Source: a virus. From it: a DNA stretch of 26,912 nucleotides. Below are positions 2,796-19,475 of this stretch, piece by piece. The position numbers were made by a program, and so were the translations under genes. Below the pieces are notes generated by a model, which was not told the origin of the DNA, made no database searches, and worked only from the letters and a program-made list of their open reading frames with translations. The DNA lies in IMG/VR virus record IMGVR_UViG_3300026533_000015, positions 1 through 26,912 of that record; one strand, given 5' to 3'. Within the stretch, counting starts at the first letter, position 1. Each line of letters opens with the position of its first letter.

Positions 2796-4115
2796 TTATA
2801 TTCCTTCCATTTGGTTTAGTTCTTCAATCCAGGTTGCTTGAACTGTTTTGTTTCTTGTTTCTTCAAGATTAGAATTGGTTTCAAGGATTTTATCTTTTGT
2901 TTCTTGCAACTTTTCCAGGGTTAAATTATAGATTGGTATTCTTAGTAAGTAATCAAAAGAGCCATCCTTTTCTATTATTCCTTTATAGTCAGCTAATGCT
3001 TTATTCAAATCATCTTTCTTAGTTTTATTTACTTTTATCTTTTCTGATGTAACTCCTTCTAAGAATAAGTACTTTGATTTTAGTTCTTTAAGATAGAGCT
3101 CTTGCTTTTCAATTAGGTTATTTTTTCTTTTGATATCGTACTTTTGTTTTATATCTATATAATAATCAAGTATTTCTTCTGCTGAATTCATAACTCTAAT
3201 TCTGTTATCTTCATCTATAACAGTATAGTTCTCAGATACTTTCTTGGTTAGTTTAAGTCTATCCGAAATCATTTCATCTGAGTTCTTAAGCACTTTTCCT
3301 TCCATATGAACTTCAAACATAAAAACATCATCTTCAGACATATCTTTGTAAGATTTTATTAGTTTTTTATCTTCTAGGTCATCAAGAACCTTAGTATAAG
3401 AAGCTAAATCATATCCTATCGGTAATTCAGTTATTTGAATTCTAGTAGATGAAATTCTCATAAAAGAACCGCTGATAAGAAACTGATTAGGAGTTGCACC
3501 TTTAGATACAGAGCCTCTGAATCCGTTGAATGAAGGCATTAAAGTGAAGTTCAGTTCTTCATTATTTAATTTTGCTTTTATATATTGTATCACTTCTTTT
3601 TTGTTTCTAGGAAGTATTTTCTGTGCGAAACCTGTTGCTATTCCTTCTGACCCATTGATTAAAATCAGAGGAATAGTGGGGATATAGAACCTAGGTTCTA
3701 TAATTGTTCCCTCAAATTCTTGTTCTATCAATACATCGTTGTATTCCTTAGAAAATATATCGTCGAAGTAATCTTCTTTTTTAGTAAAAATGTATCTTGT
3801 GGCTGATGCTGTTGGTTCAAATCTAGTACCGAAGTTTCCTTCTCTTTGTAGTAGAGGAATGTTGTTGGAACCGATATGATTTTGTGCTATCTGAATAATA
3901 GAACCTGAAATTTCTCCGTGGAGATACTCAGATTTAATCATTACCAGACCTGATAAAATACTTACCTTAGTTTCTTTGTTAGGTAGAGTTCCTAAGCTAA
4001 AAACCACTTTTCTACTAGCATTTTTTAAACCATCTATGGCTGAACCTATTGCTCTTAGTGTAGAATAAGAAGCGAAATCAACCACTTCTTCATCTAAGAA
4101 TTTTTCTATTGTCAT
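2796..4115 (-). CDS. 52: DNA topoisomerase II medium subunit (T4 gp52-like)
   Basis: This is the DNA-cleaving subunit of a T4-type type IIA topoisomerase, equivalent to GyrA/ParC and T4 gp52; it makes the transient double-strand break through a tyrosine. The N-terminus has the family pattern YSTLRAIGSAIDGLKNASRK (residues 17-36). The active-site region follows REGNFGTRFEPTASATRY, with Tyr108 the expected catalytic residue after Arg107. The 439-residue length is close to T4 gp52 and lacks the GyrA C-terminal wrapping domain, as expected for the phage enzyme. A long helical coiled-coil region spans about 330-420. It lies directly downstream of the C-terminal half of the large subunit with a 10-bp gap, so all topoisomerase parts are co-transcribed. 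Confidence 0.93.
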   Translation of the reverse strand: MTIEKFLDEEVVDFASYSTLRAIGSAIDGLKNASRKVVFSLGTLPNKETKVSILSGLVMIKSEYLHGEISGSIIQIAQNHIGSNNIPLLQREGNFGTRFEPTASATRYIFTKKEDYFDDIFSKEYNDVLIEQEFEGTIIEPRFYIPTIPLILINGSEGIATGFAQKILPRNKKEVIQYIKAKLNNEELNFTLMPSFNGFRGSVSKGATPNQFLISGSFMRISSTRIQITELPIGYDLASYTKVLDDLEDKKLIKSYKDMSEDDVFMFEVHMEGKVLKNSDEMISDRLKLTKKVSENYTVIDEDNRIRVMNSAEEILDYYIDIKQKYDIKRKNNLIEKQELYLKELKSKYLFLEGVTSEKIKVNKTKKDDLNKALADYKGIIEKDGSFDYLLRIPIYNLTLEKLQETKDKILETNSNLEETRNKTVQATWIEELNQMEGI

Positions 4116-4125
4116 TTTTATCCTT

Positions 4126-4848
4126 TTATAGTTTTATGATACTGAAAGATTCATTAGCCATAATTCTTTCTTTTCTTGTGTCAGCTTTAGATTTACTGTA
4201 CCAGTCATCTATACACTCCGATGAGGATTCAGTGTGTTCTAGTTGCACTAACATATTATCTATCCCATCTTTTTCAAGGACTGCTTTCATTTGTTCAGGA
4301 GACCAAGAACCTAAGCCTTTCATATATTTCACTTCACCTTTCAGCAAGTGCATATCTTTAATATTATAAACCCAATCTGTGACTTTTTTACCTTTCTTGG
4401 AGATGCCAACTGGAGTATTAAGTCTATAAAGAAGTCCCTCTTTAAGTTCACTTTCTAGGTATGTTTTAAAGAAAGCAATCATAAGACCATTAATAGCTAT
4501 TCCATCTAAATCAGCATCAGAAGCAATAGCAATCTTAGTGTATCCTTCATTTTTAATGATATTATAAAGTTCAGTTAATTCTTTGTTTGCTACGAACTTA
4601 GAATGTGAAGATGAATAAGCATTAAGTGGTTTACCTTTCAGTTCATAGTATCCTAATCCTTTTCTACCAAGACCGGGTAGCAAGGCAGATTTCGCTGAAT
4701 TATGTGATACAATACCATTACTTAGTAAAAAAGTTTCTGAACCAGTAACTGAAATATCATAAGTGTTTTTATACTCTTTTTCTGTTTGAACTTCTTCAAT
4801 ATCTTCTAGTTCAAACATTAGTTCAAATAGTTCTTTTTCTATTTCCAT
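4126..4848 (-). CDS. 39: Split topoisomerase large subunit, C-terminal part with C-intein (gp39-like)
   Basis: Residues 1-50 form a C-terminal intein half: an acidic, helical start, then TYDISVTGSETFLL (intein block F) and the splice motif SNGIVSHN, whose terminal Asn50 is followed by Ser51 as the first extein residue. Residues 51-240 are the missing end of the topoisomerase ATPase/TOPRIM subunit: SAKSALLPGLG continues the EGLSA motif, and SDADLDG (110-116) supplies the metal-binding aspartates. LKGKPLNAYSSS and YMKGLGSW match the conserved GyrB-type segments. The ATG overlaps the end of the N-half gene by 10 bp in another frame and has its own Shine-Dalgarno (AAAGGAG), so it is translated separately. 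Trans-splicing to the N half is expected to rebuild a 600-residue subunit. Confidence 0.92.
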   Translation of the reverse strand: MEIEKELFELMFELEDIEEVQTEKEYKNTYDISVTGSETFLLSNGIVSHNSAKSALLPGLGRKGLGYYELKGKPLNAYSSSHSKFVANKELTELYNIIKNEGYTKIAIASDADLDGIAINGLMIAFFKTYLESELKEGLLYRLNTPVGISKKGKKVTDWVYNIKDMHLLKGEVKYMKGLGSWSPEQMKAVLEKDGIDNMLVQLEHTESSSECIDDWYSKSKADTRKERIMANESFSIIKL

Positions 4849-6557
4849 TCTAGTACTCCTTTTGATATAATTAAAACATCATTATTATTTAATTCGTTGT
4901 ACTGCAATCTGAAGAATTTATTATTTCTAAAAACCATAAAAAAGTCGTTATTAGTAAACTCAATAGTGCTTTGATTATCTAAGTAGATTGTTGAATTTTC
5001 AATTTTTAGTATTTTTAGACCCTCAGTTCTAGAATTAATTTTAGATTTAACTATTTTGTATTCTTTATGGTTTAGGGCTATTTCTTTTGCTTGAACAAAA
5101 TCGAACTTTTTAGTTTTGATAGAGTAACAGTAGAATCTATGCTCTTCTGAACATTCTATCTTGCCTGATTTAGTCTTAATAGTAATTACTTCTCTAAGCA
5201 TTTTACTGACTGATTTAATCTTTTGAGTACTTCCATCTCCTGAGATAATTTTATCACCAGGGTTAAAATCTTTTATTTTCTTAGGATTAAAATTCTCGTC
5301 AAGTAACTCAGTATTTTCTTCTAAACAAAGCCCCTCACATACCAGCAGAACGTCAGCTTTACCTACCGGTTTGGTGTATTTGTCGGACTTAATTCTTTTC
5401 TTGGGTTTATCTAATCCTTTGAGTTCTTGATTTTTCTTGAACTCTTCTGCAATCCTGAAGTAATCAATTATAGAATCAGTTATTGTTTTATTTTTATAGA
5501 CTCTCTCTGAGAACTTATCCAAATCAAGATCACTAAAATAATCTTTGATATTGGCAGGTGTACTAGCAATAGTATCTTTCACTTGACCTTCCCAATCTAT
5601 ATGTTTCATATTTTTACCTACAATAACAATATTGAGTTTATTTCTAATATCAGATGGTTTTATATTTTTGTACTTCTTGGATATCTTAGTTCTGAGAGTC
5701 TTTACTACTGAATCCATAATATAATCTATATGTGAACCACCTTTAGATATTTCAAGACCATTAATGTAAGATAACTGCTTGAATTCACCTGAAGGAGAAG
5801 GTGCTATTCCTATAAAGAAATCTTTTTCTTCTTGAACTACTGAATCCTCTGAAAGAAGTTTAATGAACTTCTTGGGTTCTATTCTTACTATTTTTTTGTT
5901 GAACTTGAACTTAATTTCAGGATAAGTAAGAGCCTGCATTAAGGTGTACTCGTACATTTTATCTATATGTTCTTGGTCTATTTCATCGACTTCAAAAATA
6001 CTAAAATCAGGTTCATAGTAAAGGTCGACTCCTGTTTTCTTTGTTTGTTTTAATTTTGTTGTTTTGTGTCTGAGGTTGTTTTCAGTACCAACAATCTTGA
6101 TTCTTGCATTGGTATCTTCAGAAATCACCTCAAATAATGAAGATAAAGTTGTTACTAGCTTAACTCCAATTCCATTAACACCCTTTTGTCCTTGACCTTT
6201 TTTCTCTTTGTAATTCGAGCTAGTATTGTACTGACAAAAAGCCCTAAATAGAATATCTCCATTATTTTTGGTATCTACTCCATAACCATTATCTTTAACT
6301 CTAATTGACTTAGAATCAACTGATATTTCTATGGTATCACAACCACCTTTAATAGCAACATCAATAGGATTATCTAAAGATTCCATGAATAACTTAAGCA
6401 AAGCAGGAACAGTATTAGATGTTCCGAACTGAACTTTATCTTGTGTAATATTAAATCTATCTTTTTTCACTCTTTTGATAGAACCTGCTAGATTATAGGG
6501 TCTGTTGATTATTGCTTCTCTTTGTGTTTCTACAATTATTTCTTCAGTTTTATTCAA
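4839..6557 (-). CDS. 39: Split topoisomerase large subunit, N-terminal part with N-intein (gp39-like)
   Basis: Residues 1-410 are the ATPase and transducer part of a T4 gp39/GyrB-like subunit. Glu59 with Asn63 fits the GHKL N-box, DNGYGV (89-94) is the ATP-binding G1 motif, and GQKGVNGIGVK (~124-134) is the ATP lid. The extein stops at VLLVCEGL, carrying the TOPRIM glutamate (Glu408). An intein begins at Cys411: CLEENTELL with PGDKIISGDG fits block A, and GKIECSEEHRF (~465-475) fits block B with its His. The N-intein is 162 residues, longer than the ~90-100 usual for split inteins; the extra ~60 residues resemble a second, decayed block B region. No homing endonuclease lies between the halves. 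The gene has its own Shine-Dalgarno and starts 10 bp after the preceding gene. Confidence 0.92.
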   Translation of the reverse strand: MNKTEEIIVETQREAIINRPYNLAGSIKRVKKDRFNITQDKVQFGTSNTVPALLKLFMESLDNPIDVAIKGGCDTIEISVDSKSIRVKDNGYGVDTKNNGDILFRAFCQYNTSSNYKEKKGQGQKGVNGIGVKLVTTLSSLFEVISEDTNARIKIVGTENNLRHKTTKLKQTKKTGVDLYYEPDFSIFEVDEIDQEHIDKMYEYTLMQALTYPEIKFKFNKKIVRIEPKKFIKLLSEDSVVQEEKDFFIGIAPSPSGEFKQLSYINGLEISKGGSHIDYIMDSVVKTLRTKISKKYKNIKPSDIRNKLNIVIVGKNMKHIDWEGQVKDTIASTPANIKDYFSDLDLDKFSERVYKNKTITDSIIDYFRIAEEFKKNQELKGLDKPKKRIKSDKYTKPVGKADVLLVCEGLCLEENTELLDENFNPKKIKDFNPGDKIISGDGSTQKIKSVSKMLREVITIKTKSGKIECSEEHRFYCYSIKTKKFDFVQAKEIALNHKEYKIVKSKINSRTEGLKILKIENSTIYLDNQSTIEFTNNDFFMVFRNNKFFRLQYNELNNNDVLIISKGVLEWK

Positions 6558-6567: not shown

Positions 6568-6822
6568 TTATTTGTGTTTTGCTCTAATTCCTGCTAATGG
6601 CGAAACTGCCTTAGGATCTCCTCCGAATATGTATTCTTTAAGGTCTTTTTTGACTTGTTCACCCTCAGGACCTTCTATGTATTCTTTAATTTCATCAGAT
6701 AACTTCTGGATTCTATAAACTGCTGATAAACCGAGATTGGTTAGTCTGTCAAGCTCTTTGTTTGCATCGTTGAGTTTATCTTCTGGTTTAGGTAGAATTT
6801 CTTCTGGTTTTTTGTTTGTCAT
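6568..6822 (-). CDS. Hypothetical protein, 84 aa, coiled-coil-prone
   Basis: No family recognised. The product starts MTNKKPEEILPKPEDKLN and continues with a heptad-rich charged helix (about residues 18-65) ending in a loop around GGDPKAVSPLAG. No signal peptide or membrane segment is seen. It has a middle-type promoter 29 bp upstream and the Shine-Dalgarno AAAGGAT, and it precedes the split topoisomerase gene by 10 bp, so it heads that operon. Its promoter, ribosome binding site and first codon are copied exactly at 7043-7112. Confidence 0.7.
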   Translation of the reverse strand: MTNKKPEEILPKPEDKLNDANKELDRLTNLGLSAVYRIQKLSDEIKEYIEGPEGEQVKKDLKEYIFGGDPKAVSPLAGIRAKHK

Positions 6823-6880
6823 TGTTTAAATCCTTTGTTTTAATTGCTTAATTATATACTATTTTACTTAAATCTTGCTT
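6811..6880 (-). repeat. 70-bp perfect direct repeat, copy 1 (promoter, RBS and start codon)
   Basis: This segment is identical base for base to 7043-7112. It holds the middle-type promoter, the Shine-Dalgarno and the ATG of the gene at 6568-6822. The absence of any mismatch contrasts with the diverged topoisomerase fragment lying between the copies, so the duplication is recent or kept uniform by recombination. Confidence 0.95.
6851..6873 (-). promoter_or_regulatory. Middle-type promoter (ATTTAAG, 10 bp, TATAAT)
   Basis: The box ATTTAAG (6867-6873) is followed after 10 bp by TATAAT (6851-6856) on the minus strand. The same arrangement occurs upstream of several other genes in the window, so it is a repeated promoter class rather than a chance -10. 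It drives the gene at 6822 and the topoisomerase operon behind it. Confidence 0.7.
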
Positions 6881-6883
6881 TCT

Positions 6884-7039
6884 CATCTAAATCTGCATTA
6901 GAAGCGATAGCAATCTTAGTGAACTTTCATTTTTAATATAAGGTTCAGTTAATTCTTTGTTTGCTATGAACTTAGAATGTGAATAAACATTAAGTGGTTT
7001 ACCTTTCAGTTTATAGTATCCTAATCCTTTTCTACCAAG
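6884..7039 (-). pseudogene. Decayed fragment of topoisomerase gp39 C-half
   Basis: About 156 bp here match 4503-4671, the segment of the topoisomerase C-half that follows the intein splice site (residues ~60-116, LGRKGLGYY through the SDADLD motif). There are scattered substitutions and three small deletions. One deletion breaks the frame before the aspartate motif, and the first Asp codon has become Asn. The fragment lies between two perfect 70-bp repeats, which explains how it was trapped. It cannot make a working TOPRIM domain. Confidence 0.88.
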
Positions 7040-7054
7040 CTCTTTGTTTGTCAT
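6887..7054 (-). CDS. Chimeric 55-aa ORF fused to a topoisomerase fragment
   Basis: The second copy of the 70-bp repeat supplies a promoter, Shine-Dalgarno and ATG. Reading continues MTNKELGRKGLGYYKLKG, in the correct topoisomerase frame, through about 35 residues of gp39 sequence. It then shifts frame and stops at TAG (6887-6889). The result is a complete small translation unit with N-terminal residues from the 6568-6822 gene. Expression is plausible because its signals are identical to those of a working gene, but it may be an accident of duplication. It could at most be an interfering peptide; no function is claimed. Confidence 0.5.
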   Translation of the reverse strand: MTNKELGRKGLGYYKLKGKPLNVYSHSKFIANKELTEPYIKNESSLRLLSLLMQI

Positions 7055-7112
7055 TGTTTAAATCCTTTGTTTTAATTGCTTAATTATATACTATTTTACT
7101 TAAATCTTGCTT
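7043..7112 (-). repeat. 70-bp perfect direct repeat, copy 2
   Basis: Identical to 6811-6880, including a middle-type promoter (ATTTAAG 7099-7105, TATAAT 7083-7088). Its upstream end overlaps the last 13 bp of the gene ending at 7100. It drives only the chimeric fragment ORF before the first copy takes over. Confidence 0.95.
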
Positions 7113-10098: not shown

Positions 10099-10872
10099 TT
10101 AACTCCTTTTTATATTATTTATTTTATTTTGTATTTTTGTTATTGCTGAAGATATATCTTCATAATAGATGTCACTGAAGAATTCTTCATTTATGTGATT
10201 TTGTTTTTCTAGATTACAAAGGATGGTATTTGTAACCAAACCGTGTTTTCTTTGAACTAAATCATTTATAGGGAGAACTTCACCTGATGTTCCTATGATA
10301 AGAACTACTGTATCAGGATTAAGATTGTATTCGAACGCCCTAAAAAGATAAGAGTACATCTGAGCAGGGCCTCCATAAAAAACCACTGCTGGTCTTACTG
10401 CTTTTTCTTTGTTGCACTTAGGACAACTATCTTCAGGGTTGAACTCTTCATATCCTATATCCCATTTGTGGTAGCACTCTGAACATTCCATCTTAGTTAA
10501 TTCTCCGTGAAGATGAAGAACTTCAGTATCTATTCTCTCGAAGAAATCAGTGACATTTTGTGTTATATTAAAGACGTTTTCCTTTCCGCATTTACTTATA
10601 ATCTCTTTTATTGCAAGATGAACTTCATTAGGTTCTTTCGTTTTTAGTTCAGTTCTTCTTTCGTTGTAGAATTTATGCACTTTTAAGTAATTATCTTTCC
10701 AGGTTTTTTCACTGCATATTTCATCTATAGAATGTCCGTTCCAAAGTCCTTTTTCTCCTCTGAATGTCTGAATTCCTGAAGGAGCATCCAATCCTGCTCC
10801 TGATAAAATAATTATCTTTTTTGAAGGATTAAGTTTTCCGTCAGGACCCATTTCTGCTCTAGGAATAAACAT
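10099..10872 (-). CDS. Sir2-family NAD-dependent protein (sirtuin)
   Basis: The 257-residue protein has the full sirtuin layout. The NAD-binding loop is GAGLDAPSGIQTFRG (25-39), followed by TQNV (104-107). The catalytic His lies in LHGE (His122). A four-cysteine zinc ribbon is at 130, 133, 150 and 153. RPAVVFYGG (160-168) and GTS (194-196) follow. Sirtuins use NAD+ to remove acyl groups and release nicotinamide. The usual Asp two residues after the conserved Asn (TQN-x-D) is Thr here, with an Asp one residue later; that Asp normally contacts nicotinamide, so activity may be altered. The gene overlaps its upstream neighbour by one base and is the last of a four-gene operon with NAD kinase. Released nicotinamide is the substrate of Nampt encoded at 16038-17465. 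Confidence 0.92.
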   Translation of the reverse strand: MFIPRAEMGPDGKLNPSKKIIILSGAGLDAPSGIQTFRGEKGLWNGHSIDEICSEKTWKDNYLKVHKFYNERRTELKTKEPNEVHLAIKEIISKCGKENVFNITQNVTDFFERIDTEVLHLHGELTKMECSECYHKWDIGYEEFNPEDSCPKCNKEKAVRPAVVFYGGPAQMYSYLFRAFEYNLNPDTVVLIIGTSGEVLPINDLVQRKHGLVTNTILCNLEKQNHINEEFFSDIYYEDISSAITKIQNKINNIKRS

Positions 10873-11414
10873 TAACTTAGTACCTTAAGAAGAAGCTTCA
10901 TAAAACCTGAATCAGGAATACAAGATTGAACTTCTATTTCATCAAGCAAATCAACTAAGAATTCAACATCGTTAATTATTGAACAACTGAAATCATATTT
11001 TTGTGAACTATACATTTCACAGAAGAATTTAAGTGATTCTTCATCTTGAACTTCCACTTGTAATTGCTGTTCAACGGCTTCAGTAAAATAACTAAATGCT
11101 TGATTATAAAGATGGTTTTCTTCGTGTGAATTATCTACTTTAATTGCTGTTTCTTTAACATAACCCTGAACTTCTGAATCTATAATTATTTCTCTTAATG
11201 AAATTTTACCTTGAGGTTTCACTTCATTATTTTGTTTGAAGTTCTCAAAACCTGCCCTTGAATTTCCTAAGGTTTTATTTAATTTTTTATTTTTAGTTAA
11301 GTTCCCTTTTTCATTAAGGTTAAAATATTCATATTCATAACTGTATGCTGTGGATTTTCTTAGTTCTTTAAGATTACCCAAACATCCTAAGAGTTTTGTT
11401 TCTGCTGAATCCAT
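10872..11414 (-). CDS. Hypothetical protein between NAD kinase and Sir2, 180 aa
   Basis: No family recognised. The product is polar, with Asn/Lys-rich low-complexity in residues 25-75 and an acidic helical C-terminal half (YFTEAVEQQLQVEVQDEESL; FLVDLLDEIEVQ). No membrane segment. It overlaps both neighbours by single bases, so NAD kinase, this protein and Sir2 are translated in a coupled series; a role in the same NAD-linked process is possible but unproven. Confidence 0.7.
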   Translation of the reverse strand: MDSAETKLLGCLGNLKELRKSTAYSYEYEYFNLNEKGNLTKNKKLNKTLGNSRAGFENFKQNNEVKPQGKISLREIIIDSEVQGYVKETAIKVDNSHEENHLYNQAFSYFTEAVEQQLQVEVQDEESLKFFCEMYSSQKYDFSCSIINDVEFLVDLLDEIEVQSCIPDSGFMKLLLKVLS

Positions 11415-12073
11415 TAAATAATCCTTTTTTGTTTGAAAGTTTTGTAGTCGTTGAAGATAATATCTATTTTATCTCCTTTTTCTATAACCAATGATTTAAC
11501 ATTGTTCACTATTGTATTTTTCCCATCTAAGAAAACTTTAATTTCTCCTCTTGATTCAAGGTTTATTTTTATTTTTCCGTAGGAGAGAACATAGTTGATT
11601 TTTCTACTTGTTTTATCTCCTGTTATAGACCAAGATTTAGAACTCAAAGGTAAAATAACACCTGAATTATTTTTGTTAATTCCTGTTGAACCTTGTGGGG
11701 TACTGAATATAAGACCTGAACCTTTGAAGTTCCCAAGTATATTATCTTTATCTTCTGTTTTAAAGTCTATCCACCCGTTTTCTTCTGAGATAAAAATATC
11801 ATTAAATGCTTGATACTCTTTGGTTCCTGTGTCTGTTGTTATGGTTGCTTTTATCAATCTGAATGTTTTTGTTTTTGCATTAGGGCTGATAGTTGCACTT
11901 TCATTCATAAGAAAATTAACAGTTCCACCAGCAACACCAAAGAATGGGAGTTCATGATGTCTGAATTTATTAATTGCTTTAAGCAGAGTTCCATCACCAC
12001 CTTGAACTTGAACTAAGTCGTGATAAACCTTAGCTAATTTATTTTTATCATATTCATCAATAAAATAATTCAT
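11414..12073 (-). CDS. NAD kinase (short phage form)
   Basis: The product (219 residues) carries the NAD kinase signatures in order. GGDGTLL (25-31) is the diphosphate-binding motif, and GVAGGTVNFLMN (46-57) matches the G-x-x-G-x-x-x-F-L motif. FNDIFI (90-95) matches the conserved Asn-Glu/Asp site. GSGLIFSTPQGSTG (118-131) corresponds to the GDGLIVSTPTGSTAY motif. NAD kinase phosphorylates NAD+ to NADP+. GGDGT lies at residue 25 rather than ~70, so the N-terminal ~45 residues of cellular enzymes are missing; no in-frame extension fits because the upstream gene overlaps by 4 bp (ATGA). It sits in one operon with Sir2 and near NMN adenylyltransferase. Activity is not certain with the short N-terminus. 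Confidence 0.88.
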   Translation of the reverse strand: MNYFIDEYDKNKLAKVYHDLVQVQGGDGTLLKAINKFRHHELPFFGVAGGTVNFLMNESATISPNAKTKTFRLIKATITTDTGTKEYQAFNDIFISEENGWIDFKTEDKDNILGNFKGSGLIFSTPQGSTGINKNNSGVILPLSSKSWSITGDKTSRKINYVLSYGKIKINLESRGEIKVFLDGKNTIVNNVKSLVIEKGDKIDIIFNDYKTFKQKRII

Positions 12074-12528
12074 ATTTCTTTCCTTTTGTTTTGTTTGAAT
12101 AACTCTTTATGCACCATTTCTATGGTTATATCCTCTTCCTTAAAAGGAACTCCTTCTGTTGTTTCTTTTAAAATCATATGTTTGTGGTCGTAGACATCTC
12201 TGAACTTAGAGAACTTGAAAAGTTTAGTCCTAACACTTCCTTTGGTTAGGACTAAATTTACTTCTACATAACCATCTAATCTACTAATTACACCCATTTT
12301 TTTTAAATTTTTAGTTTCTATTATAGTTCTTTCTACTTGAAAGAACTTAAAAGGGTATTGAGTTGATTCTCTTAAATATTCTCTGATAAGATGACCTGCA
12401 CTAGAAACAGTAACATACTTAAAATCATGCACTTTAAATAAGTATTCTGCATCTCTCTCTATTATATGTACGTCATAATCAATTTGAACTATGTGATTTT
12501 CATTTATGTATATATTATCTAAGAACAT
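12070..12528 (-). CDS. Hypothetical protein, 152 aa
   Basis: No family recognised. The 152-residue product is beta-rich at first (IVQIDYDVHIIERDAEYLFK), central segments carry basic residues, and the C-terminal part is helical and charged (ITIEMVHKELFKQNKRKEI). It is the first gene behind the middle-type promoter at 12561-12583 and overlaps the NAD kinase start by 4 bp (ATGA), so it leads the NAD kinase/Sir2 operon. Confidence 0.7.
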   Translation of the reverse strand: MFLDNIYINENHIVQIDYDVHIIERDAEYLFKVHDFKYVTVSSAGHLIREYLRESTQYPFKFFQVERTIIETKNLKKMGVISRLDGYVEVNLVLTKGSVRTKLFKFSKFRDVYDHKHMILKETTEGVPFKEEDITIEMVHKELFKQNKRKEI

Positions 12529-12560
12529 TTTATAATTCCTTTCTTGTTTAAATTTAAGTA

Positions 12561-12583
12561 ATTATACAACATCAACCTTAAAC
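12561..12583 (-). promoter_or_regulatory. Middle-type promoter (GTTTAAG, 10 bp, TATAAT)
   Basis: GTTTAAG (12577-12583), 10 bp and TATAAT (12561-12566) on the minus strand. It overlaps the stop region of the gene upstream and drives the operon of 12070-12528, NAD kinase, the 180-aa protein and Sir2. Confidence 0.65.
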
Positions 12584-12979
12584 CAAAACAATATCACCCA
12601 AAGGAACTTTTATTTCTTTTGGTTCAAGAACATTAACATATACAGTATCTTTAGAGTAATCATCTATCGTACCCTTGATGTCTTTTCTTCCTTGACGGAC
12701 TAAGCACTTTAACTCTTTATCTTGTCTGAGGGCTGTTTTGATAGTTGCTAGTTTATCATCATTTTTATCTAAGAGGACAACATCATCAATATGAACTTTC
12801 ATCTCTTTAGTTTCTTGTATTTCTACATAGACTGTATCTTTAGAGTAATCAGTTATTACACCCTTGATGTCTTTTCTTCCTTGACGGACTAAGCACTTCA
12901 ACTCTTTATCTTGTCTGAGGGCTCCTCTTATTGTATCTACAATACTATCTTCGTTTAAGTATTCTTTGAATGTTTTCAT
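12578..12979 (-). CDS. Tandem-repeat protein with capsid-targeting-like N-terminus, 133 aa
   Basis: The product begins MKTFKEYLNE, close to the T4 capsid-targeting peptide MKTYQEFIAE, and L-N-E fits the prohead protease consensus. The rest is two nearly identical 63-residue units. Each contains ALRQDKELKCLVRQGRKDIKG, DYSKDTVYV and a beta-rich end (KEMKVHIDDVVLL; KEIKVPLGDIVLV), suggesting two small SH3-like or Sm-like barrels. No named family is recognised. It may be an internal head protein delivered with DNA. It is the last gene of the operon containing NMN adenylyltransferase, and the middle-type promoter for the next operon overlaps its stop. Confidence 0.65.
   Translation of the reverse strand: MKTFKEYLNEDSIVDTIRGALRQDKELKCLVRQGRKDIKGVITDYSKDTVYVEIQETKEMKVHIDDVVLLDKNDDKLATIKTALRQDKELKCLVRQGRKDIKGTIDDYSKDTVYVNVLEPKEIKVPLGDIVLV
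12642..12923. repeat. 93-bp tandem duplication inside the 12578-12979 gene
   Basis: Segments 12642-12734 and 12831-12923 are near-identical at a 189-bp (63-codon) offset. The central ~60 bp, ending in the string that encodes the ALRQDKELK region, are almost unchanged. The spacing is a whole number of codons, so frame is kept and the protein is duplicated in-frame. High DNA identity points to a recent duplication. Confidence 0.9.
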
Positions 12980-12993
12980 TTATCTTCTCCGTT

Positions 12994-13254
12994 TTATTTG
13001 TATTTAATAATTTCATAAGTTCCATTGAACTTGTATTCTTTATTGTTTTTTATAAATTGAACTGAATTGTTTGTTTCAGTGTACTTATCAACATAGTACA
13101 TTCTAAAATCAGGAGCTGTTATGCTGTACTTCTTTGATTCTTTAACTGGAATCCAGATAATTAAAAGCATAACCAAAACCCAGATAACCATAAAAAAGAA
13201 AAAAGGGTCTTTAACTATGTCTTTAAGAGTTTCTTTAAATTTCATTTCCACCAT
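12994..13254 (-). CDS. Small inner-membrane protein, 86 aa
   Basis: One hydrophobic segment (residues ~17-36, FFFFMVIWVLVMLLIIWIPV) follows a short charged N-terminus (MVEMKFKETLKDIVKDP). The remaining ~50 residues are polar and beta-prone (YSITAPDFRMYYVDKYTETN). This fits a single-pass membrane protein with a small periplasmic domain, in type II-like orientation by the positive-inside rule. It overlaps the NMN adenylyltransferase stop by 13 bp. The role is unknown; lysis control or superinfection exclusion are only guesses. Confidence 0.65.
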   Translation of the reverse strand: MVEMKFKETLKDIVKDPFFFFMVIWVLVMLLIIWIPVKESKKYSITAPDFRMYYVDKYTETNNSVQFIKNNKEYKFNGTYEIIKYK

Positions 13255-13949
13255 CCTTTTAGGTTCTTAAGATGAATATACACTCTAGCATCAAGGTTTC
13301 TTTTTGCTGTTTCTTCATTGTTTCTTATATCAGAAGCGTGTATAACTTCTCCTTTTGAACATTGAACTTCTTGAACTTCTTGAATCCTAAAACCTTCATC
13401 TTTGAATATTTTAGTATAGGATTCGTTAGTGTACTGCTGTCCATTGAACACAAAATCTCTTTTATCTTGCTCTTTGGTGTGTTCAAATAAAGTTATTTGT
13501 TCTTTGGGAATATTAACTACATCAATTAAATTCCTGTACCACTCTGTCCAATCATCCTTATCTTCTATTCCTAGAACTTTTACAGTGGGGTATAAAAACT
13601 TGATTATTCTTTTTCTTTCCTCGAATGAAAGGGGATGTCTTTCATCAGATTTATCTGTACCACCTAAAAGAACTACTGGTTTCTTTCCTGAACGGATTAT
13701 TTCCTGAAGGATTGAATTATGACCTTTGTGGAATGGCATACATCTTCCTATAAACAAACCATATTCTATTTTAGAATCTAAGTACTTCTGAAGTTCTCGC
13801 TCGAAAGTAAGATATGCTTCATATTTGTCGAACTTAAAATTATCTCTTTTCATTGCTGTTTCTATGCTGATATAGCAATCCAACCATTTAAGGTTTTTAC
13901 CGAATTCTAAATAGAACTTTTCTATTCCTTGCATTATGTATTTTTGCAT
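13242..13949 (-). CDS. Nicotinamide-nucleotide adenylyltransferase (NMNAT, NadM/NadR-like)
   Basis: The 235-residue protein contains a nucleotidyltransferase core. GLFIGRCMPFHKGH (64-77) holds the H-x-G-H-type ATP site, ERHPLSFEERKRII (103-116) matches the family segment after the second strand, and IHASDIR (203-209) matches the C-terminal iSaTeIR motif. The enzyme joins NMN and ATP to give NAD+ and pyrophosphate, completing the step that follows Nampt. Residues 1-60 form an extra N-terminal helical region of unknown role. It lies in the middle operon from the promoter at 15988, next to the Nampt operon. Nicotinate-mononucleotide specificity cannot be excluded, but Nampt nearby argues for NMN. 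Confidence 0.88.
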   Translation of the reverse strand: MQKYIMQGIEKFYLEFGKNLKWLDCYISIETAMKRDNFKFDKYEAYLTFERELQKYLDSKIEYGLFIGRCMPFHKGHNSILQEIIRSGKKPVVLLGGTDKSDERHPLSFEERKRIIKFLYPTVKVLGIEDKDDWTEWYRNLIDVVNIPKEQITLFEHTKEQDKRDFVFNGQQYTNESYTKIFKDEGFRIQEVQEVQCSKGEVIHASDIRNNEETAKRNLDARVYIHLKNLKGWWK

Positions 13950-13959
13950 TTTTATCCTT

Positions 13960-14181
13960 TTAAATTGCTAGTTCAGGTCTATTTTTATAGATTTCATTTA
14001 AGACAATTACTCTAGATGGGATTTTGCCTGTTTTTTTATACCCGTATTCGTTTTGGTATTTAATCAAACCCTTCTCTTCATTTACTTCAGTTACAGTACC
14101 AAAATTACCTATTCCTTTTGCTGAATTCATATAGTAGATTTGGTCTCCAACCTGAATTTCTTGCTCTAGTGAATCAAACAT
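13960..14181 (-). CDS. Small SH3-like barrel protein, 73 aa
   Basis: The product is a short beta-rich chain: VGDQIYYMNSAKGIGNFGTV, then TEVNEEKGLIKYQNEYGYKK and IPSRVIVL. The GD-x-I-x-Y opening with a G-x-V turn is typical of KOW/Tudor-like or SH3-like barrels. No named family. It starts 8 bp inside the end of the preceding gene, whose product has a similar barrel pattern, so they may be distant relatives. Confidence 0.6.
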   Translation of the reverse strand: MFDSLEQEIQVGDQIYYMNSAKGIGNFGTVTEVNEEKGLIKYQNEYGYKKTGKIPSRVIVLNEIYKNRPELAI

Positions 14182-14542
14182 TTTTAGGAACCATAATCAT
14201 CTCTTCAGCAAAAATAGAAGGAGTAAGTGAACTTCTGTATTCTTTACCGTCTTGATTAAAAGTTTCTTCAAAGGGCCAAGTATCAGAAGCGAACTCAACT
14301 GTTATTTTTCTATCATTCTTCATTTCTTCTATCTCTTGAATTTCCGCAAAACCATAATCTCTGTGCCAGATAGTATCTCCTTTTTTTATGGTTTTTAAGG
14401 TTTTAGGTTTATTTGCTTTTAGTGTACTTTCTTGTAATACCAAAGATAAATCCAAGAAGAATTTCTGTTCATCTTTAAGATTTACTCCTTTTAGCACTAC
14501 TTTTACTTTCTCCATAACTTGAACTCTTTCTTCTCTGTTCAT
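14174..14542 (-). CDS. Hypothetical protein with C-terminal SH3-like barrel, 122 aa
   Basis: Residues 1-45 are helical (MNREERVQVMEKVKVVLKG) and residues ~47-115 show a barrel pattern beginning KKGDTIWHRDYGFAEIQEIE and continuing KITVEFASDTWPFEETF. The GD-x-I-W-H-x-x-x-G-x-A signature resembles CarD/Tudor-like domains that bind nucleic acids or proteins. It overlaps the next gene by 8 bp and the previous one by 4 bp. Function not known. Confidence 0.6.
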   Translation of the reverse strand: MNREERVQVMEKVKVVLKGVNLKDEQKFFLDLSLVLQESTLKANKPKTLKTIKKGDTIWHRDYGFAEIQEIEEMKNDRKITVEFASDTWPFEETFNQDGKEYRSSLTPSIFAEEMIMVPKNV

Positions 14543-14793
14543 ATTGTTTTCCTTTGTTCTCTTTTGCTGTATTCAAGAGTCTGAGTACTTAAATCATTTA
14601 CTGCAAACAAACACTCATCCTCAGTGTTGAAGTTGTAACTTGTTTCTCTTAGTGAAGTATTATGACCATTAATATATCTAGTACATACGACTATTCTTTT
14701 ACTGAAGAGGTCAGTAGTAACATAGAAATCAGCATCATCGGATATTTTTAGTGGGGAATCCCCACCCCTTGTTCCTTTAACTATTAAAAACAT
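14539..14793 (-). CDS. Hypothetical protein, 84 aa (paralogue A)
   Basis: This protein and the product of the next gene upstream (14794-15051) are tandem paralogues. They share MFLIVKGTR, GDSPLKISDDADF, an ECLFA core and DLSTQTLEYSK. The start is fixed by the identical MFLIVKGTR beginning. The middle third (residues 30-55) has diverged while the ends are kept. No family is recognised; the beta-helix-beta character suggests a small single-domain protein. It overlaps its downstream neighbour by 4 bp. Confidence 0.7.
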   Translation of the reverse strand: MFLIVKGTRGGDSPLKISDDADFYVTTDLFSKRIVVCTRYINGHNTSLRETSYNFNTEDECLFAVNDLSTQTLEYSKREQRKTI

Positions 14794-15051
14794 CTATATG
14801 CTCCTTTTTTGTAGCTCTTTCTTGCTGTATTCAAGAGTCTGGGTACTTAAATCTTTTAATGCAAATAAACATTCATTTTTGGAGTTGAACCTATAAGTTA
14901 TTTCTTTTAGAGTTAATTTTTCTCCGAATATGTATCTTATTTTAATGTTTAAGCTCATACTATCAGAATTAACTTCAACAAAGAAATCAGCATCATCAGA
15001 TATTTTTAGTGGGGAATCCCCATCCCTTGTTCCTTTAACTATTAAAAACAT
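14794..15051 (-). CDS. Hypothetical protein, 85 aa (paralogue B)
   Basis: Paralogue of the product at 14539-14793, sharing the first ~23 residues almost exactly and the ECLFAL...LSTQTLEYSK end. The two genes abut with no gap, as expected from tandem duplication, and divergence is greatest in the middle. It overlaps the end of its upstream neighbour (15035-15469) by 17 bp. No function recognised. Confidence 0.7.
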   Translation of the reverse strand: MFLIVKGTRDGDSPLKISDDADFFVEVNSDSMSLNIKIRYIFGEKLTLKEITYRFNSKNECLFALKDLSTQTLEYSKKELQKRSI

Positions 15052-15469
15052 CTGTGTATTCTTTCTTTGGAAGTTTAAAGATACCGAAAGAATCCAAAAT
15101 AAACCTAAACATCATTTCTTTATGAACATAATCTTTTGCTAGAACAATACTTTTAAGAATTGTTTTGAACTCCTGAACACTAAATGTTCTCTCTACAAAA
15201 AGGATTTTATTTTTCTTTTTCTTTCGTTTAATCTCTTCTTTAACTATTATAGAGATAACATTTCTATTATCTAAGCTAGTGCCGAAAGCAAGAACTAGTT
15301 TTTCTTTTTCGCTGTCAGCAACATTAAGACATCTAATCTCATCGTAGAATGTATCTTTTGAGAAGTTAAACGCTGATGTCCCTCTAAGAGTGTAAGTACT
15401 TCCACCTCTAATACCTTCTATATCCAATGCTTCATTAAGTAAGTCTTTTACTAATTTGTACGCTGTCAT
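15035..15469 (-). CDS. Hypothetical protein, 144 aa
   Basis: No family recognised. The product starts MTAYKLVKDLLNEALDIEGI, a helical opening. It has a beta-rich middle (KLVLAFGTSLDNRNVISIIV), a basic patch (KEEIKRKKKKNK, ~108-119) and a C-terminal helical region. The basic patch could contact nucleic acid. It follows the first gene of the operon by 3 bp. Confidence 0.65.
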   Translation of the reverse strand: MTAYKLVKDLLNEALDIEGIRGGSTYTLRGTSAFNFSKDTFYDEIRCLNVADSEKEKLVLAFGTSLDNRNVISIIVKEEIKRKKKKNKILFVERTFSVQEFKTILKSIVLAKDYVHKEMMFRFILDSFGIFKLPKKEYTDVFNS

Positions 15470-15472
15470 TTT

Positions 15473-15952
15473 TTATCCTAATTTTTTGATTTGGTCTATG
15501 ATTTTAAAATCTACTTCGAAAATATCCTCTTCGTCATCAATAGTATAATTCCACTTAACTGTATCGATGATTGAAGCTATAACTTCTATTTGTTCATCTT
15601 CAAGCTGGTACTTGTTTTCTATAAGGTTTTTGTACTCTTTATCCACCATTTTGAACCATTTTTGTTTTATTTTTTCTTGTTCTTTAACTGCTTTAATGTA
15701 ACCCTCTTCATCTTGAACTGTTGAAGATTTTAATTTGTTAAGATTATTTCTCACTTTAAGACCTAGACTTATATATTCTTCTCTAGTGTAAGTATAAGTT
15801 TTCTCCGATTCACCTGTGATAGGGTCAAGTAGTTCAAAAGTTAAAGTTTCAAATTTGGCTTTTGGTACGTAGTCTGGAGTTCCGTATCCACTTTTTTCTA
15901 CTATTGCTTTTGCTTCTTCTTTGATGCACTCTATTATTGTTTTTGTTTTCAT
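15473..15952 (-). CDS. Hypothetical protein, 159 aa, charged
   Basis: No family recognised. The product is charged and largely helical, with a YTREEYISLGLKVRNNLNKL helix in the middle and an acidic C-terminal part (YTIDDEEDIFEVDFKIIDQI). No membrane segment or signal peptide. It is the first gene behind the middle-type promoter at 15988-16010 and so heads the operon that contains NMN adenylyltransferase. Confidence 0.7.
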   Translation of the reverse strand: MKTKTIIECIKEEAKAIVEKSGYGTPDYVPKAKFETLTFELLDPITGESEKTYTYTREEYISLGLKVRNNLNKLKSSTVQDEEGYIKAVKEQEKIKQKWFKMVDKEYKNLIENKYQLEDEQIEVIASIIDTVKWNYTIDDEEDIFEVDFKIIDQIKKLG

Positions 15953-15987
15953 ATTCTATATCCTTAATTAATGTTTTTGTTGTTGTA

Positions 15988-16010
15988 ATTATATGTGCTT
16001 TAACTTAAAA
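15988..16010 (-). promoter_or_regulatory. Middle-type promoter (TTTTAAG, 10 bp, TATAAT)
   Basis: TTTTAAG (16004-16010), 10 bp and TATAAT (15988-15993) on the minus strand. The leader that follows shares the string TACAACAACAAAAACATTAA with the leader behind the promoter at 18291, so the two NAD-salvage operons start with almost the same promoter and 5' leader. Confidence 0.75.
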
Positions 16011-16026
16011 CTTTATTAACTCTATT

Positions 16027-16052
16027 AACTCTATGGCTTAAGCCATAGAGTT
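16027..16052 (-). terminator. 26-bp perfect palindrome at the end of the Nampt gene
   Basis: Arms AACTCTATGGC (16042-16052 on the minus strand) and GCCATAGAGTT pair perfectly around TTAA, giving an 11-bp stem that contains the Nampt stop codon. No T-run follows, so it may be an RNA 3'-end hairpin or a weak terminator insulating the next operon's promoter, which lies 17 bp downstream. Confidence 0.55.
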
Positions 16053-17465
16053 ATTTCTTACTTCCTCGAAATTATACTCTTTAAGGATTTCTCCATTTTC
16101 AAAAACAGTAACTAAAGCATCTTCTGCATCAGTGAACTTTTTCCCTTGAAGGTCTACAAAATAAGTTCCATCTTTTCTTCTGTAGGTGCTTACTTTACCT
16201 TTCTTAGATTTTTTATTTGGTGCTGTGATAGGGTCTTTATAAACATCTATTTCAGTTCCATCTTTAAGAGTTGCACTACTGCATTTAATAGCCCAAGCTT
16301 GAGTATCTCTGTTGTTTGAGGTAGTATCATTACCAGCCATTAAAGCGCCACCCATTCCAAACGATAAACATTCTGATGAATAACCTCTTTCTTTCAAGAT
16401 ATCTAGCATAATTTTAATTTCATCTTCACAAATTCCGTCACCCCAAATTATTGAATAAGAATCCCATACTTTAAAACCTTTATCGTTGGTTGTGAACTTA
16501 ACTTCGTTTTTCTCCATAATATCTAATGTCTGAGGAATAATCTCTGCTGGAATTCCTGAATCTGGTCTGATAACAAAGGTTGGATATTCAGGATTTTCAA
16601 TTAGTTCTCTTATCTTGAAATCATTGTAAGAAGTAACTGCATCAACAAATCTAAGATAATCATAAGAGTCAGCAACACACGCTATCAAAAGAGCACCTTT
16701 TGATTTCAGGATGAAGTTCTCTACAAATTCCATTTCACCAATGAACTTATCTTCAAAAGTTCCTGCATAAGATGTGACTTGACTATGTTCAGATGCCCGG
16801 ATACTGTGACCTATTTCTCCTTTTCTATCTTTCATTCCGTATAACTCAGCTACCCCTTTAATTGAAGTGAAGTTATCTGTTCCTTTGAACTGTGTAAGAT
16901 GAGCCATCCCTCCTAACATTGCTGATTCTGCTGATGAAGAACCTCTTGAACCGAAGTTATGAAGTGAATAATCTACATTAGGATTGTCTTGTGTTTCTTC
17001 AGCATAACCAAGCAAGATTTGTTTAATTTTATAAGATTCAGTTGCTATATTTGAAGAGTACCAACATCTCATTAATGCTGTTTCTAAGTGTCCACCTAAA
17101 GTAGGAATCCTAGGGTCCGTTGATTCTAAAGTAAAAAGGACATTTTGAGTTGGTACTTTAGTTCCTTCTGGTATTGCTCTGATTCTAATAGGTAACTTAC
17201 CCTCTAATTCAGTAGCAATATACATCCAATCATCGTATTCAAAAGGAGTACCGTGGAACTCATTGTATTCTTTAGCTTCAAGGACATCTTCAGGTGTTAT
17301 TTTTTGCTGGAGTGTTTTTAAGATAGGTTGTAAACCCATAAAAATAGTAAATTCCCCTTTAGCTCTTGCTTCTGCATAAGAGTACATAGATTCTATAGAA
17401 TCGTGTGTTTGCTGTGGGTGGCTAAATTTGTAAGAGTCCGTGTCTAAGATAATTGATGTTTTCAT
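16038..17465 (-). CDS. Nicotinamide phosphoribosyltransferase (Nampt)
   Basis: Nampt joins nicotinamide and PRPP to give NMN, the first step of nicotinamide salvage. The 475-residue length matches the family (~490). Recognisable segments follow the Nampt order: DTDSYKFSHPQQ near the start, SYAEARAKGEF, LHNFGSRGSSSAESAMLGG, AHLTQFKGTDNF, RASEHSQVTSY, FVIRPDSG, WGDGICED and LSFGMGGAL. WAIKCSS and ITAPNKKSKKGKVS come near the end. The His of ASEHS and the aspartates of RPDSG and WGDG correspond to catalytic and ribose-phosphate-binding residues. It is transcribed from the same middle-type promoter class as NMN adenylyltransferase, and together the two remake NAD+ from nicotinamide. The stop lies in a perfect palindrome. 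Confidence 0.95.
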   Translation of the reverse strand: MKTSIILDTDSYKFSHPQQTHDSIESMYSYAEARAKGEFTIFMGLQPILKTLQQKITPEDVLEAKEYNEFHGTPFEYDDWMYIATELEGKLPIRIRAIPEGTKVPTQNVLFTLESTDPRIPTLGGHLETALMRCWYSSNIATESYKIKQILLGYAEETQDNPNVDYSLHNFGSRGSSSAESAMLGGMAHLTQFKGTDNFTSIKGVAELYGMKDRKGEIGHSIRASEHSQVTSYAGTFEDKFIGEMEFVENFILKSKGALLIACVADSYDYLRFVDAVTSYNDFKIRELIENPEYPTFVIRPDSGIPAEIIPQTLDIMEKNEVKFTTNDKGFKVWDSYSIIWGDGICEDEIKIMLDILKERGYSSECLSFGMGGALMAGNDTTSNNRDTQAWAIKCSSATLKDGTEIDVYKDPITAPNKKSKKGKVSTYRRKDGTYFVDLQGKKFTDAEDALVTVFENGEILKEYNFEEVRNNSMA

Positions 17466-17587: not shown

Positions 17588-18070
17588 TTAAAATATAAAT
17601 CTATGGTCTTTAGTGGTACTGATGTTCATTGCTTCAAGTGTAAGTTCTATTTCTTTCAGGCATTCATCTACTCCTCCACCTATTATAGTGTGGTTTTTAG
17701 TTCTGTCTATACATAATATCTCTTCATATATACAAGGAAGATTAATATTTTTGATTTCTAGGTTTCTGTCTTTAATTAAAGCTTTAAGACCTCTGATGAT
17801 TTCTTCTTCATCTAGCTCTCGCATAGCATCTCTAATCCAACCATAATCTTTTTCTATAAAATCTATGTGATCCATAACATCTTCTCTTAAGTCAAGTTCA
17901 AACAGGAACTGATACATATCATCTAAAGAATCACAACCTAAGTCCTCCCCAACAAAAAAGTAATTTATTTCTTCATTGTTTTCATAAGCTAATTCTAGTT
18001 CACGAACAAAATCTAATAAATCAAAATTAATACTAGGTAAGTAAGTTGGTTGAATATCCACTACTATCAT
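17588..18070 (-). CDS. Isochorismatase/nicotinamidase-superfamily-like protein
   Basis: The 160-residue product begins MIVVDIQPTY, like the vvDvQ start of isochorismatase and nicotinamidase hydrolases, giving a candidate catalytic Asp5. A mid-protein Lys74 in FIEKDYGW and Cys137 in TIIGGGVDECLKE fit the Asp-Lys-Cys triad of that superfamily. The protein is acidic and slightly shorter than typical enzymes. Related DIQP...GGG-x-x-ECLKE proteins occur in large phages, with no settled role known to me. It is upstream of Nampt in the same operon and its ATG overlaps the previous stop (TAATG). A nicotinamide or amide substrate is a guess from context; the superfamily assignment is moderately supported. 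Confidence 0.55.
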   Translation of the reverse strand: MIVVDIQPTYLPSINFDLLDFVRELELAYENNEEINYFFVGEDLGCDSLDDMYQFLFELDLREDVMDHIDFIEKDYGWIRDAMRELDEEEIIRGLKALIKDRNLEIKNINLPCIYEEILCIDRTKNHTIIGGGVDECLKEIELTLEAMNISTTKDHRFIF

Positions 18071-18249
18071 TATTTCACCTCTCTGTAAACATTGTTTTTT
18101 AGATTTAATTCTTTAATTAATAAATCTATGCTTTTTAGTTCTGAGGAGTTCGCTAAATGAACTCTATAATAATGTTTTAGTTCTAGGAGTGTTCCTGTTA
18201 CTGAAGTTTCCTTAGTAAATCTATTTGATTTAATAGTGTATTCTTTCAT
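18070..18249 (-). CDS. Small hypothetical protein, 59 aa
   Basis: A short ORF beginning MKEYTIKSNRFTKETSVTGT is the first gene behind the middle-type promoter at 18291-18313. It has a Shine-Dalgarno (AAAGGAT), and its TAA overlaps the ATG of the isochorismatase-like gene by one base, so the two are coupled. The N-terminal half is beta-prone and the C-terminal half (ELKSIDLLIKELNLKNNVYR) helical. No family recognised. Confidence 0.7.
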   Translation of the reverse strand: MKEYTIKSNRFTKETSVTGTLLELKHYYRVHLANSSELKSIDLLIKELNLKNNVYREVK

Positions 18250-18290
18250 CTTCTATCCTTTAAAGCTTACTTAATGTTTTTGTTGTTGTA

Positions 18291-18313
18291 ATTATATGTA
18301 CTTAAACTTAAAT
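18291..18313 (-). promoter_or_regulatory. Middle-type promoter (ATTTAAG, 10 bp, TATAAT)
   Basis: ATTTAAG (18307-18313), 10 bp and TATAAT (18291-18296) on the minus strand. It drives the 59-aa gene, the isochorismatase-like gene and Nampt. Its downstream leader nearly repeats that of the promoter at 15988. Confidence 0.75.
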
Positions 18314-18370
18314 CTAGCTTAAATGGTTAATTGGTTGTAACTGAAGTTCCTGAAGTACTTTCACTAACTT

Positions 18371-18610
18371 GAATGGCTGGTTACTTAGTTCTAAATTAAA
18401 TTTATTCTTCAGTGGTTCAGTGTTTATTATATTAGATGTTTTTGGTTTTTGAATTAGTGCATCAGTGCATCAGCTTAAGTTCATTAATGAATAATTGAAT
18501 GGCTGGTTACTTAGTTGGTTTAAAGAGGTTCTAAATTAAATTTATTTTTCAGTGTTTATTATATTAGATGTTTTTGGTTTAAAATTAAATTTATTAGATG
18601 TTTTTGGTTT
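18371..18610. repeat. Degenerate nested repeats in the non-coding region
   Basis: A 20-bp string (GAATGGCTGG then TTACTTAGTT) occurs at 18371-18390 and 18498-18517, each followed by CTAAATTAAATTTATT. A second string ending TTAGATGTTTTTGGTTT occurs three times, ending near 18448, 18580 and 18610. No ORF spans the block on either strand. The pattern is that of successive partial duplications; function unknown. Confidence 0.8.
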
Positions 18611-18635
18611 TAAGAAGACCAAGGCTTCACGGACG

Positions 18636-18683
18636 CTTTATTCTAGCGAAGCGAATAAAGTAGACGTATTGCTGAAAGCAATA
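18636..18683. other. Two adjacent perfect hairpins in the non-coding region
   Basis: CTTTATTC (18636-18643) pairs with GAATAAAG (18653-18660) around a loop containing GCGAAGC, itself a known very stable mini-hairpin sequence. Immediately after, TATTGCT (18667-18673) pairs with AGCAATA (18677-18683) around GAA. The element is less AT-rich than its surroundings and may be a structured RNA piece or an acquired fragment. Confidence 0.55.
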
Positions 18684-18722
18684 AGGACTAAGTAGAATTA
18701 ATGATTTGTTTAGTGGGATTTA

Positions 18723-18922
18723 AGTCGTAAAAATGTTACACGAAGTAAAAGTGAACTTTTTTTAAAAACTTTATTTCCTAAGTGAACACCCAACTAAATT
18801 TTAGTCGTAAAAATGTTACACGAAGTAAAATAAAACTTTTTTTGTTCACTTTTACTAAGCATAACATTCAAAAACTAAATTTTTAGTCGTAAAAATGTTA
18901 CACGAAGTAAAAGTGAACTTTT
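18723..18922. repeat. Three identical 28-bp repeats with inner dyad
   Basis: Identical 28-bp copies (AGTCGTAAAAATG... ending AAGTAAAA) start at 18723, 18803 and 18895, spaced 80 and 92 bp. Copies 1 and 3 continue with GTGAACTTTTTT. Each contains TCGT and ACGA arms, extended by TTTTA/TAAAA in copies 2 and 3, so each can form the same imperfect hairpin. Candidates are iteron-like binding sites of a replication origin, an operator array, or a repeated transcript 3' end. Confidence 0.85.
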
Positions 18923-18939
18923 TTAAGTTCAATTACTAA

Positions 18940-19372
18940 GTAAAAAGTAATTAGAGATTAATTACTTTATGGCTAGTTAAAAGAGTGTGCCTGCACTTGA
19001 AAGTTTTTAGGGTTTAAATTACTAAATATCTTTTCGATAACAAAAGTTAAGACTGTTCACAAATGAATGAACTTAGATTCAGTTGGTCTCTAAACTACAA
19101 TATGCTATACCCATACCTAATACCGAAGTATCTTCCTCTCCTGTTAGAGGCAAAATGTAGTTATTTTATTTGTTTCTACTAAAATAAGTTCGTTTAAAAC
19201 GTACTTACAACATCTTAATAACGAAGTTAAGAACAAAAGTACATATGAATACTTTTCAATCTAGCTATTCCTAAAACCCAATGTACTACTTCTACATTAT
19301 CTATAAGGTTTTTAATTATCGTTTTAAGTCGAACATTTTCTATCTATAAGCAAGATACTATGCTTATTTATT
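18940..19372 (-). ncRNA. Candidate ~430-nt structured non-coding RNA
   Basis: A consensus promoter at 19379-19407 would start a minus-strand transcript near 19372, and no usable ORF follows. Instead there is a chain of perfect hairpins: 19346-19367 (6 bp), 19280-19298 (6 bp), 19236-19255 (6 bp), 19213-19232 (6 bp) and 19161-19187 (8 bp). A four-way-junction-like element follows at 19093-19162. Its closing stem AACTACA/TGTAGTT encloses CCTCT/AGAGG, a cUUCGg tetraloop hairpin (19120-19131) and TATG/CATA. Further hairpins are at 19055-19072 and 19030-19046. The chain ends in a 10-bp terminator-like stem (18944-18968). It does not match tRNA, tmRNA, RNase P or group I intron signatures known to me. 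The structure was paired by eye; there is no covariation evidence. Confidence 0.5.
18944..18968 (-). terminator. Terminator-like hairpin ending the candidate RNA
   Basis: On the minus strand AAAGTAATTA pairs perfectly with TAATTACTTT around ATCTC, and the stem runs into a short T-tract. The 10-bp stem is all A/T except one G-C pair, so it is weaker than usual, but placement at the end of the hairpin chain fits a transcript end. Confidence 0.5.
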
Positions 19373-19378
19373 AGTCGT

Positions 19379-19407
19379 ATTATAACATAAAAAGCTCTAG
19401 AAGTCAA
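19379..19407 (-). promoter_or_regulatory. Consensus sigma-70-type promoter for the candidate RNA
   Basis: TTGACT (19402-19407), exactly 17 bp, and TATAAT (19379-19384) on the minus strand. The -35 lies in the loop and stem of the terminator hairpin at 19393-19419, so termination of the upstream gene and initiation into the non-coding region use the same bases. Confidence 0.75.
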
Positions 19408-19419
19408 GCTTCTAGAGCT
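19393..19419 (-). terminator. Intrinsic terminator after the 61-aa gene
   Basis: AGCTCTAGAAG and CTTCTAGAGCT form a perfect 11-bp stem around a 5-base loop, followed on the minus strand by TTTTT. It would end transcription of the gene at 19476-19661. It overlaps the promoter at 19379-19407. Confidence 0.8.
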
Positions 19420-19472: not shown

Positions 19473-19475
19473 AAG

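Follow-up and report, generated by a model that had tools for sequence, protein, structure and literature searches.

A natural split intein interrupts the TOPRIM motif of a phage type II topoisomerase and carries a duplicated Hint module

How might a phage build a complete topoisomerase II large subunit when the catalytic glutamate of its TOPRIM domain is encoded by one gene and the TOPRIM aspartates by another? The question is raised by IMG/VR virus record IMGVR_UViG_3300026533_000015, a 26.9-kb contig of a T4-like phage (positions 1 to 26,912; this whole stretch is called the window below), in which both half-genes of the large subunit lie on the minus strand. We consider it highly likely that the two half-genes would yield a 600-residue large subunit through class 1 trans-splicing of a natural split intein. 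The element itself appears to be a genuine natural split intein, and the splicing reaction is predicted from its sequence.

The N-half gene (4839..6557; 572 aa, TTG start) encodes the ATPase and transducer regions of the large subunit followed by an N-intein (IntN). Its extein, residues 1 to 410 (5328..6557), was delimited by a match to phrog_543 and by alignment against uninterrupted relatives; it ends in VCEGL, with the codon of the TOPRIM catalytic Glu408 at 5334-5336. IntN runs for 162 aa from Cys1, which is Cys411 of the N protein, to Lys162 (4842..5327). The C-half gene (4126..4848; 240 aa) begins with a 50-aa C-intein (IntC, 4699..4848) and resumes the topoisomerase at Ser51, the +1 residue. 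This C-extein (4129..4698) starts with SAKSAL and holds the remainder of TOPRIM and the C-terminal part, the codons for Asp111, Asp113 and Asp115 of its DADLD motif lying between 4504 and 4518. The intein is inserted two residues past the TOPRIM glutamate, at E408-G-L/C on the N side and HN/S on the C side. A sequence-only reading of this stretch had placed the insertion at this glutamate, with the aspartates on the other chain, the N half running to VCEGL and Cys411, and the C half resuming after SHN at Ser51; these coordinates and residues were reproduced, and empty-site homologues align across the junction. Its estimate of a joined product of about 600 residues also agrees with the exons, which sum to 600 aa, the predicted splice joint spanning VLLVCEGLSAKSALL.

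The exons of the two proteins fit together as a single T4-type large subunit with GHKL ATPase, transducer and TOPRIM regions. The topoisomerase II large-subunit family phrog_543 matches the N protein over model positions 23-444 (E=1.2e-73) and the C protein over positions 445-639 (E=3.6e-33), and since these positions are contiguous across the two proteins, no sequence has been lost between the exons. The phage T4 topoisomerase in the PDB matches as well. An uninterrupted gene for a gp52-like medium subunit, the expected partner of the spliced product, lies at 2796..4115 on the same strand.

The two half-genes overlap by 10 nt (ATGGAAATAG, 4839..4848), the ATG of the C gene overlapping the TAG stop of the N gene, so there is no room for an endonuclease gene between the halves, just as had been proposed. 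The N and C parts of the intein are encoded by separate genes, each with its own start and stop, as expected of a natural split intein, and a Shine-Dalgarno-like AAGGAG (4856..4861) located within the N gene, 7 nt upstream of the ATG, bears out the suggestion that the second gene is started separately. Given that the frames overlap with an offset of -1, ribosomal frameshifting could in principle fuse them into one chain, from which a contiguous intein would splice in cis. We regard this as very improbable, because the sole X-XXY-YYZ heptamer in the N frame falls at codon 124, with none near the stop, because the C gene is equipped with a separate ATG and Shine-Dalgarno sequence, and because relatives have 1.1-1.4 kb or about 79 kb between their halves. 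The earlier distinction between a true split and a frameshift is thereby upheld.

Homologues with an empty site read EGASA, EGRSA or EGQSA across the insertion point, and human TOP2B reads EGDSAKS at the same site. The sequence-only reading had likened the joined form, EGLSA, to that of T4 gp39. The window's closest topoisomerases, those of Vibrio phages (N exon 58% identical) and of IMG/VR contig L002, lack the intein. Two-sequence alignment scans of IMG/VR for relatives with the intein found none. Scanning IMG/VR with a degenerate motif, L-x-NGI[VI]-x-HN-S-A, which is neutral as to intein splitting, returned 26 loci, 15 of them with a TOPRIM exon behind the intein (12 clearly distinct phages and three near-copies). 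A profile scan of viral contigs gave 50 loci; most of these were already known or were inteins of other proteins, and one, L062, was a new topoisomerase case. From the annotated phages we recovered a single record with the same arrangement, the 462-kb uncultured phage LR756500.1 (L008), in which the order is N gene, 373-aa open reading frame (ORF) and C gene, with the same cut site. At least 14 other phages share the insertion site, and all are split. Throughout the topoisomerase loci of the motif and profile scans, a stop closes the frame upstream of the C-intein within about 70 codons, and the C half has its own Met 43-50 codons before the junction. A C-intein profile scan of genome contigs found only archaeal inteins in non-topoisomerase proteins, and no cis version at the TOPRIM site. 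Including the window, the family has at least 15 members, and the other N-inteins are 22-33% identical to that of the window.

These relatives bear on another explanation, namely that the window, a single contig, holds a contiguous intein whose break stems from a sequencing error or from recent mutational decay. The break point within the intein is identical in at least 14 other phages and the Shine-Dalgarno sequence of the C gene is well placed, and we find this explanation scarcely credible, the least probable of those weighed here.

Some relatives carry further interruptions. L015 (IMGVR_UViG_3300014838_001158) has its topoisomerase divided among three genes by two split inteins, one at EG/SA and one at DAD/CDG, so that both TOPRIM metal motifs are interrupted. 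The TOPRIM exon of L012/L048 and L022/L046 has a second break, made by an insertion that does not look like an intein (GDFYKI..MIVNENDEIKID..WVLVKDL), and a GIY-YIG-like gene lies behind it in L012. The gp52 medium subunit is also intein-split, past HHGD and with a nuclease-like ORF behind, in L008 (7634-9127) and L062 (8615-10070).

The halves of the window's element carry the signatures of a class 1 intein. The Hint core of IntN, residues 1-95 (5043..5327), contains block A (CLEENT), block B (SEEH, in keeping with T/S-x-x-H) and block N4, and IntC contains block F (YDISV) and block G (NGIVSHN), followed by Ser+1. IntC matches TIGR01443 (intein_Cterm) with E=3.9e-7 and a score of 30.1 bits, where the cut-off is 15.6. 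Cys1 and the block B His63 are present in 13/13 N-inteins, and neither was used in finding the loci; Asp31 of the C-intein is present in 14/14. His49, Asn50 and Ser+1 are also found in 14/14 C-inteins, a frequency that is biased because these residues belonged to the search motif. The top PDB match of the N-intein family profile is the gp41-1 intein (6qaz; E=1.8e-6, profile positions 18-68), which supports the kinship to gp41-1 that had been proposed, along with the Cys1/Asn/Ser+1 set and the block B. With these motifs, the TIGR01443 score and the same split in at least 14 other phages, the reading of the locus as a split intein was sustained. Three features weigh against it: IntN scores positive yet below the curated cut-offs of PF14890 (E=1.4e-5) and TIGR01445; the -1 residue is Leu, unlike that of textbook inteins; and block B has Ser in place of the textbook Thr, a position that is S, T or G across the family, with Ser and Gly both common. 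Modeled alone, IntN reached a predicted local distance difference test score (pLDDT) of 86.5, and its pieces compared with solved inteins at Z 5-5.7, under the clear range. Foldseek at E<=0.001 gave no matches for the IntN model or for a model of its tail.

If the element works as these signatures predict, IntN and IntC from the two precursors would meet and fold into one Hint domain. An N-S acyl shift at Cys1, transesterification to Ser+1 and cyclization of Asn50 would then excise the intein and ligate Leu410 with Ser51. The resulting 600-residue subunit would carry the TOPRIM motif intact, as EGLSA, and could pair with the gp52-like subunit. Glu408 and the DxDxD aspartates belong to separate chains, so splicing should be required for topoisomerase activity. 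The halves might instead stay unspliced, either working together as a non-covalent multi-subunit enzyme or leaving the enzyme dead. There is precedent for function without joining: the T4 topoisomerase is active although mobA has divided its large-subunit gene in two, and split nrdA and gene 43 also function without splicing (PMC2988022). In the present family, however, every member examined retains the catalytic residues of the intein, 212 foreign residues would remain beside the catalytic glutamate, and the exons are intact, with an end-to-end match to phrog_543. We therefore think it unlikely that the halves stay unspliced, though this is the least improbable of the alternatives to trans-splicing.

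Every N-intein of the family extends about 65 residues past blocks A, N2, B and N4. In the window this tail comprises residues 96-162 (4842..5042) and is a degenerate duplicate of the block B/N4 module, with TNND replacing TxxH. When residues 40-95 and the tail were compared as profiles, the score was 40.6 (E about 1e-8), against a maximum of 13.6 for 200 column-shuffled tails and 6.1 for the reversed tail. The block B His is retained in 7/13 tails; the window's tail has Asp there. By this comparison, the N-intein contains a duplicated Hint segment where cis inteins hold an endonuclease domain, and this segment accounts for its exceeding the normal length by about 65 residues. Modeled alone, the tail reached a pLDDT of 90 and a predicted template modeling score of 0.74. 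In a structure comparison of the tail, intein 5bkh ranked first (Z 5.5), level with unrelated beta folds, and we did not use this result as evidence. The gp52 split intein of the LR756500 phage has no such tail and stops just past block N4. One guess is that the tail shields the unpaired N-fragment or aids partner finding. We offer only tentatively, as a rather doubtful extension, that the TOPRIM-site split inteins may be a distinct lineage whose duplicated block B module is adapted to two-chain life, for example by shielding the unpaired N-fragment or by recruiting and timing the C-fragment, with topoisomerase activity gated by chain assembly.

Most relatives differ from the window in what lies between the halves. 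At least 11 loci show an N half with an ORF behind it, and the gap is 1.1-1.4 kb where both junctions fall in one locus. The ORFs between the halves are endonuclease-like (L008, L013, L015, L019, L023, L024, L027, L028, L036, L039 and L062). Nine of the 10 tested match the functionally uncharacterized family phrog_22677, and Pfam is nearly silent on them, with DUF559 matched in L015 alone. Their recurrent motifs (IEFNG..H / DH..IKFGF) and the fractured-gene layout suggest that they are nuclease-like. The window copy departs from a fractured gene in having no endonuclease between its halves. A third layout occurs in G001, a 158-kb contig whose N gene (104017-105726) and C gene (24731-25084), both on the minus strand, are about 79 kb apart; no endonuclease-like ORF adjoins either half. 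If the assembly is right, the protein could be made there only by joining in trans, and this separation argues against frameshifting for the family.

Phylogenies of host gene and intein disagree. By its N exon the window groups with two topoisomerases that lack the intein (support 100/100), whereas its N-intein clusters with those of G002 and G001 (100/99), which belong to distant topoisomerases. The intein-bearing topoisomerases do not form one clade (approximately unbiased test, p=0.002), and the starred branches force at least three changes. This discordance implies that the element is sporadic or mobile, gained or lost repeatedly. Within the window's intein clade, an endonuclease-like ORF is still present in G002, the halves are scattered in G001, and those of the window overlap. 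The simplest reading is that these three states followed one origin and that the endonuclease was lost. The TOPRIM site may have been invaded by a mobile split intein that came as a fractured gene, together with a free-standing endonuclease; the endonuclease gene would later have been lost in the window phage, where the half-genes now overlap and are probably translated in a coupled manner.

The window also holds a decayed copy of its own TOPRIM exon (6877-7039; 153/177 alignment columns identical, readable as a 55-aa ORF), which begins 27 nt downstream of where the intein is inserted. Within 6811-7112, it is flanked by a 70-bp perfect direct repeat comprising the upstream and start region of the gene at 6568-6822.

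Elsewhere in the window, a group of genes related to nicotinamide adenine dinucleotide (NAD) occupies 10099-17465, with a Sir2 gene (10099-10872), an NAD-kinase-like gene just under the cut-off (11414-12073), a nucleotidyltransferase-like gene (13242-13949) and a nicotinamide phosphoribosyltransferase gene (16038-17465). Short direct-repeat families at 18388-18934, including a 55-nt unit and a 33-nt unit present three times each, fall in a stretch (18070-19721) without a listed ORF of at least 80 aa.

Natural split inteins and fractured genes with a free-standing endonuclease, among them gp41-1, gp41-8, NrdJ-1 and IMPDH-1, were reportedly described by Dassa in 2009. A later fractured-gene split intein, AceL NrdHF, has an IntN of 98 aa (PMC7891396). 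Like these, the element described here splits a phage gene in two, with half of the intein on either piece, and most relatives have an endonuclease-like gene between the halves; unlike them, it sits in a topoisomerase II gene, the window lacks the endonuclease, and IntN is 162 aa long with a duplicated Hint module. It also exceeds the minimal Hint length of gp41-1 (128 aa in total), at 162+50 aa with the duplicated module. The Ssp GyrB intein occupies what we take to be the equivalent position, EGD/SAGG, and we know of no extra module in GyrB inteins. GyrB inteins (Ssp GyrB and the Desulfonema GyrB mini-intein) likewise lie in a TOPRIM-bearing type II topoisomerase subunit, but unlike the TOPRIM-site split inteins they are contiguous and cellular (PMC6390638). 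The split DNA polymerase B intein of MIJ3 is similarly found in a jumbo-phage replication gene and is split around an HNH endonuclease gene, although gene and site differ and the MIJ3 endonuclease is still there (PMC6892783). In T4, gp39/gp60 divide the same large subunit into two pieces via the mobile endonuclease mobA, but without an intein, and the subunits remain apart (PMC2988022). Closest is LR756500.1, with the same gene, site and split and a 31% identical IntN; it differs in having an endonuclease-like ORF between the halves and an intein-split gp52. We found no account of a phage topoisomerase split intein, or of the duplicated module, in the open literature, and priority is uncertain. 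The natural split intein, or fractured gene, is a known kind of element; the insertion site and architecture appear to be new.

What emerges is a recurrent split intein at the catalytic glutamate of a phage replication enzyme, in endonuclease-bearing and endonuclease-free forms. These forms, together with the separated halves of G001, offer a direct test of how a split intein persists after endonuclease loss, and new natural split inteins can be drawn from the family. The conserved duplicated module raises the question of what an N-fragment needs while it awaits its partner.
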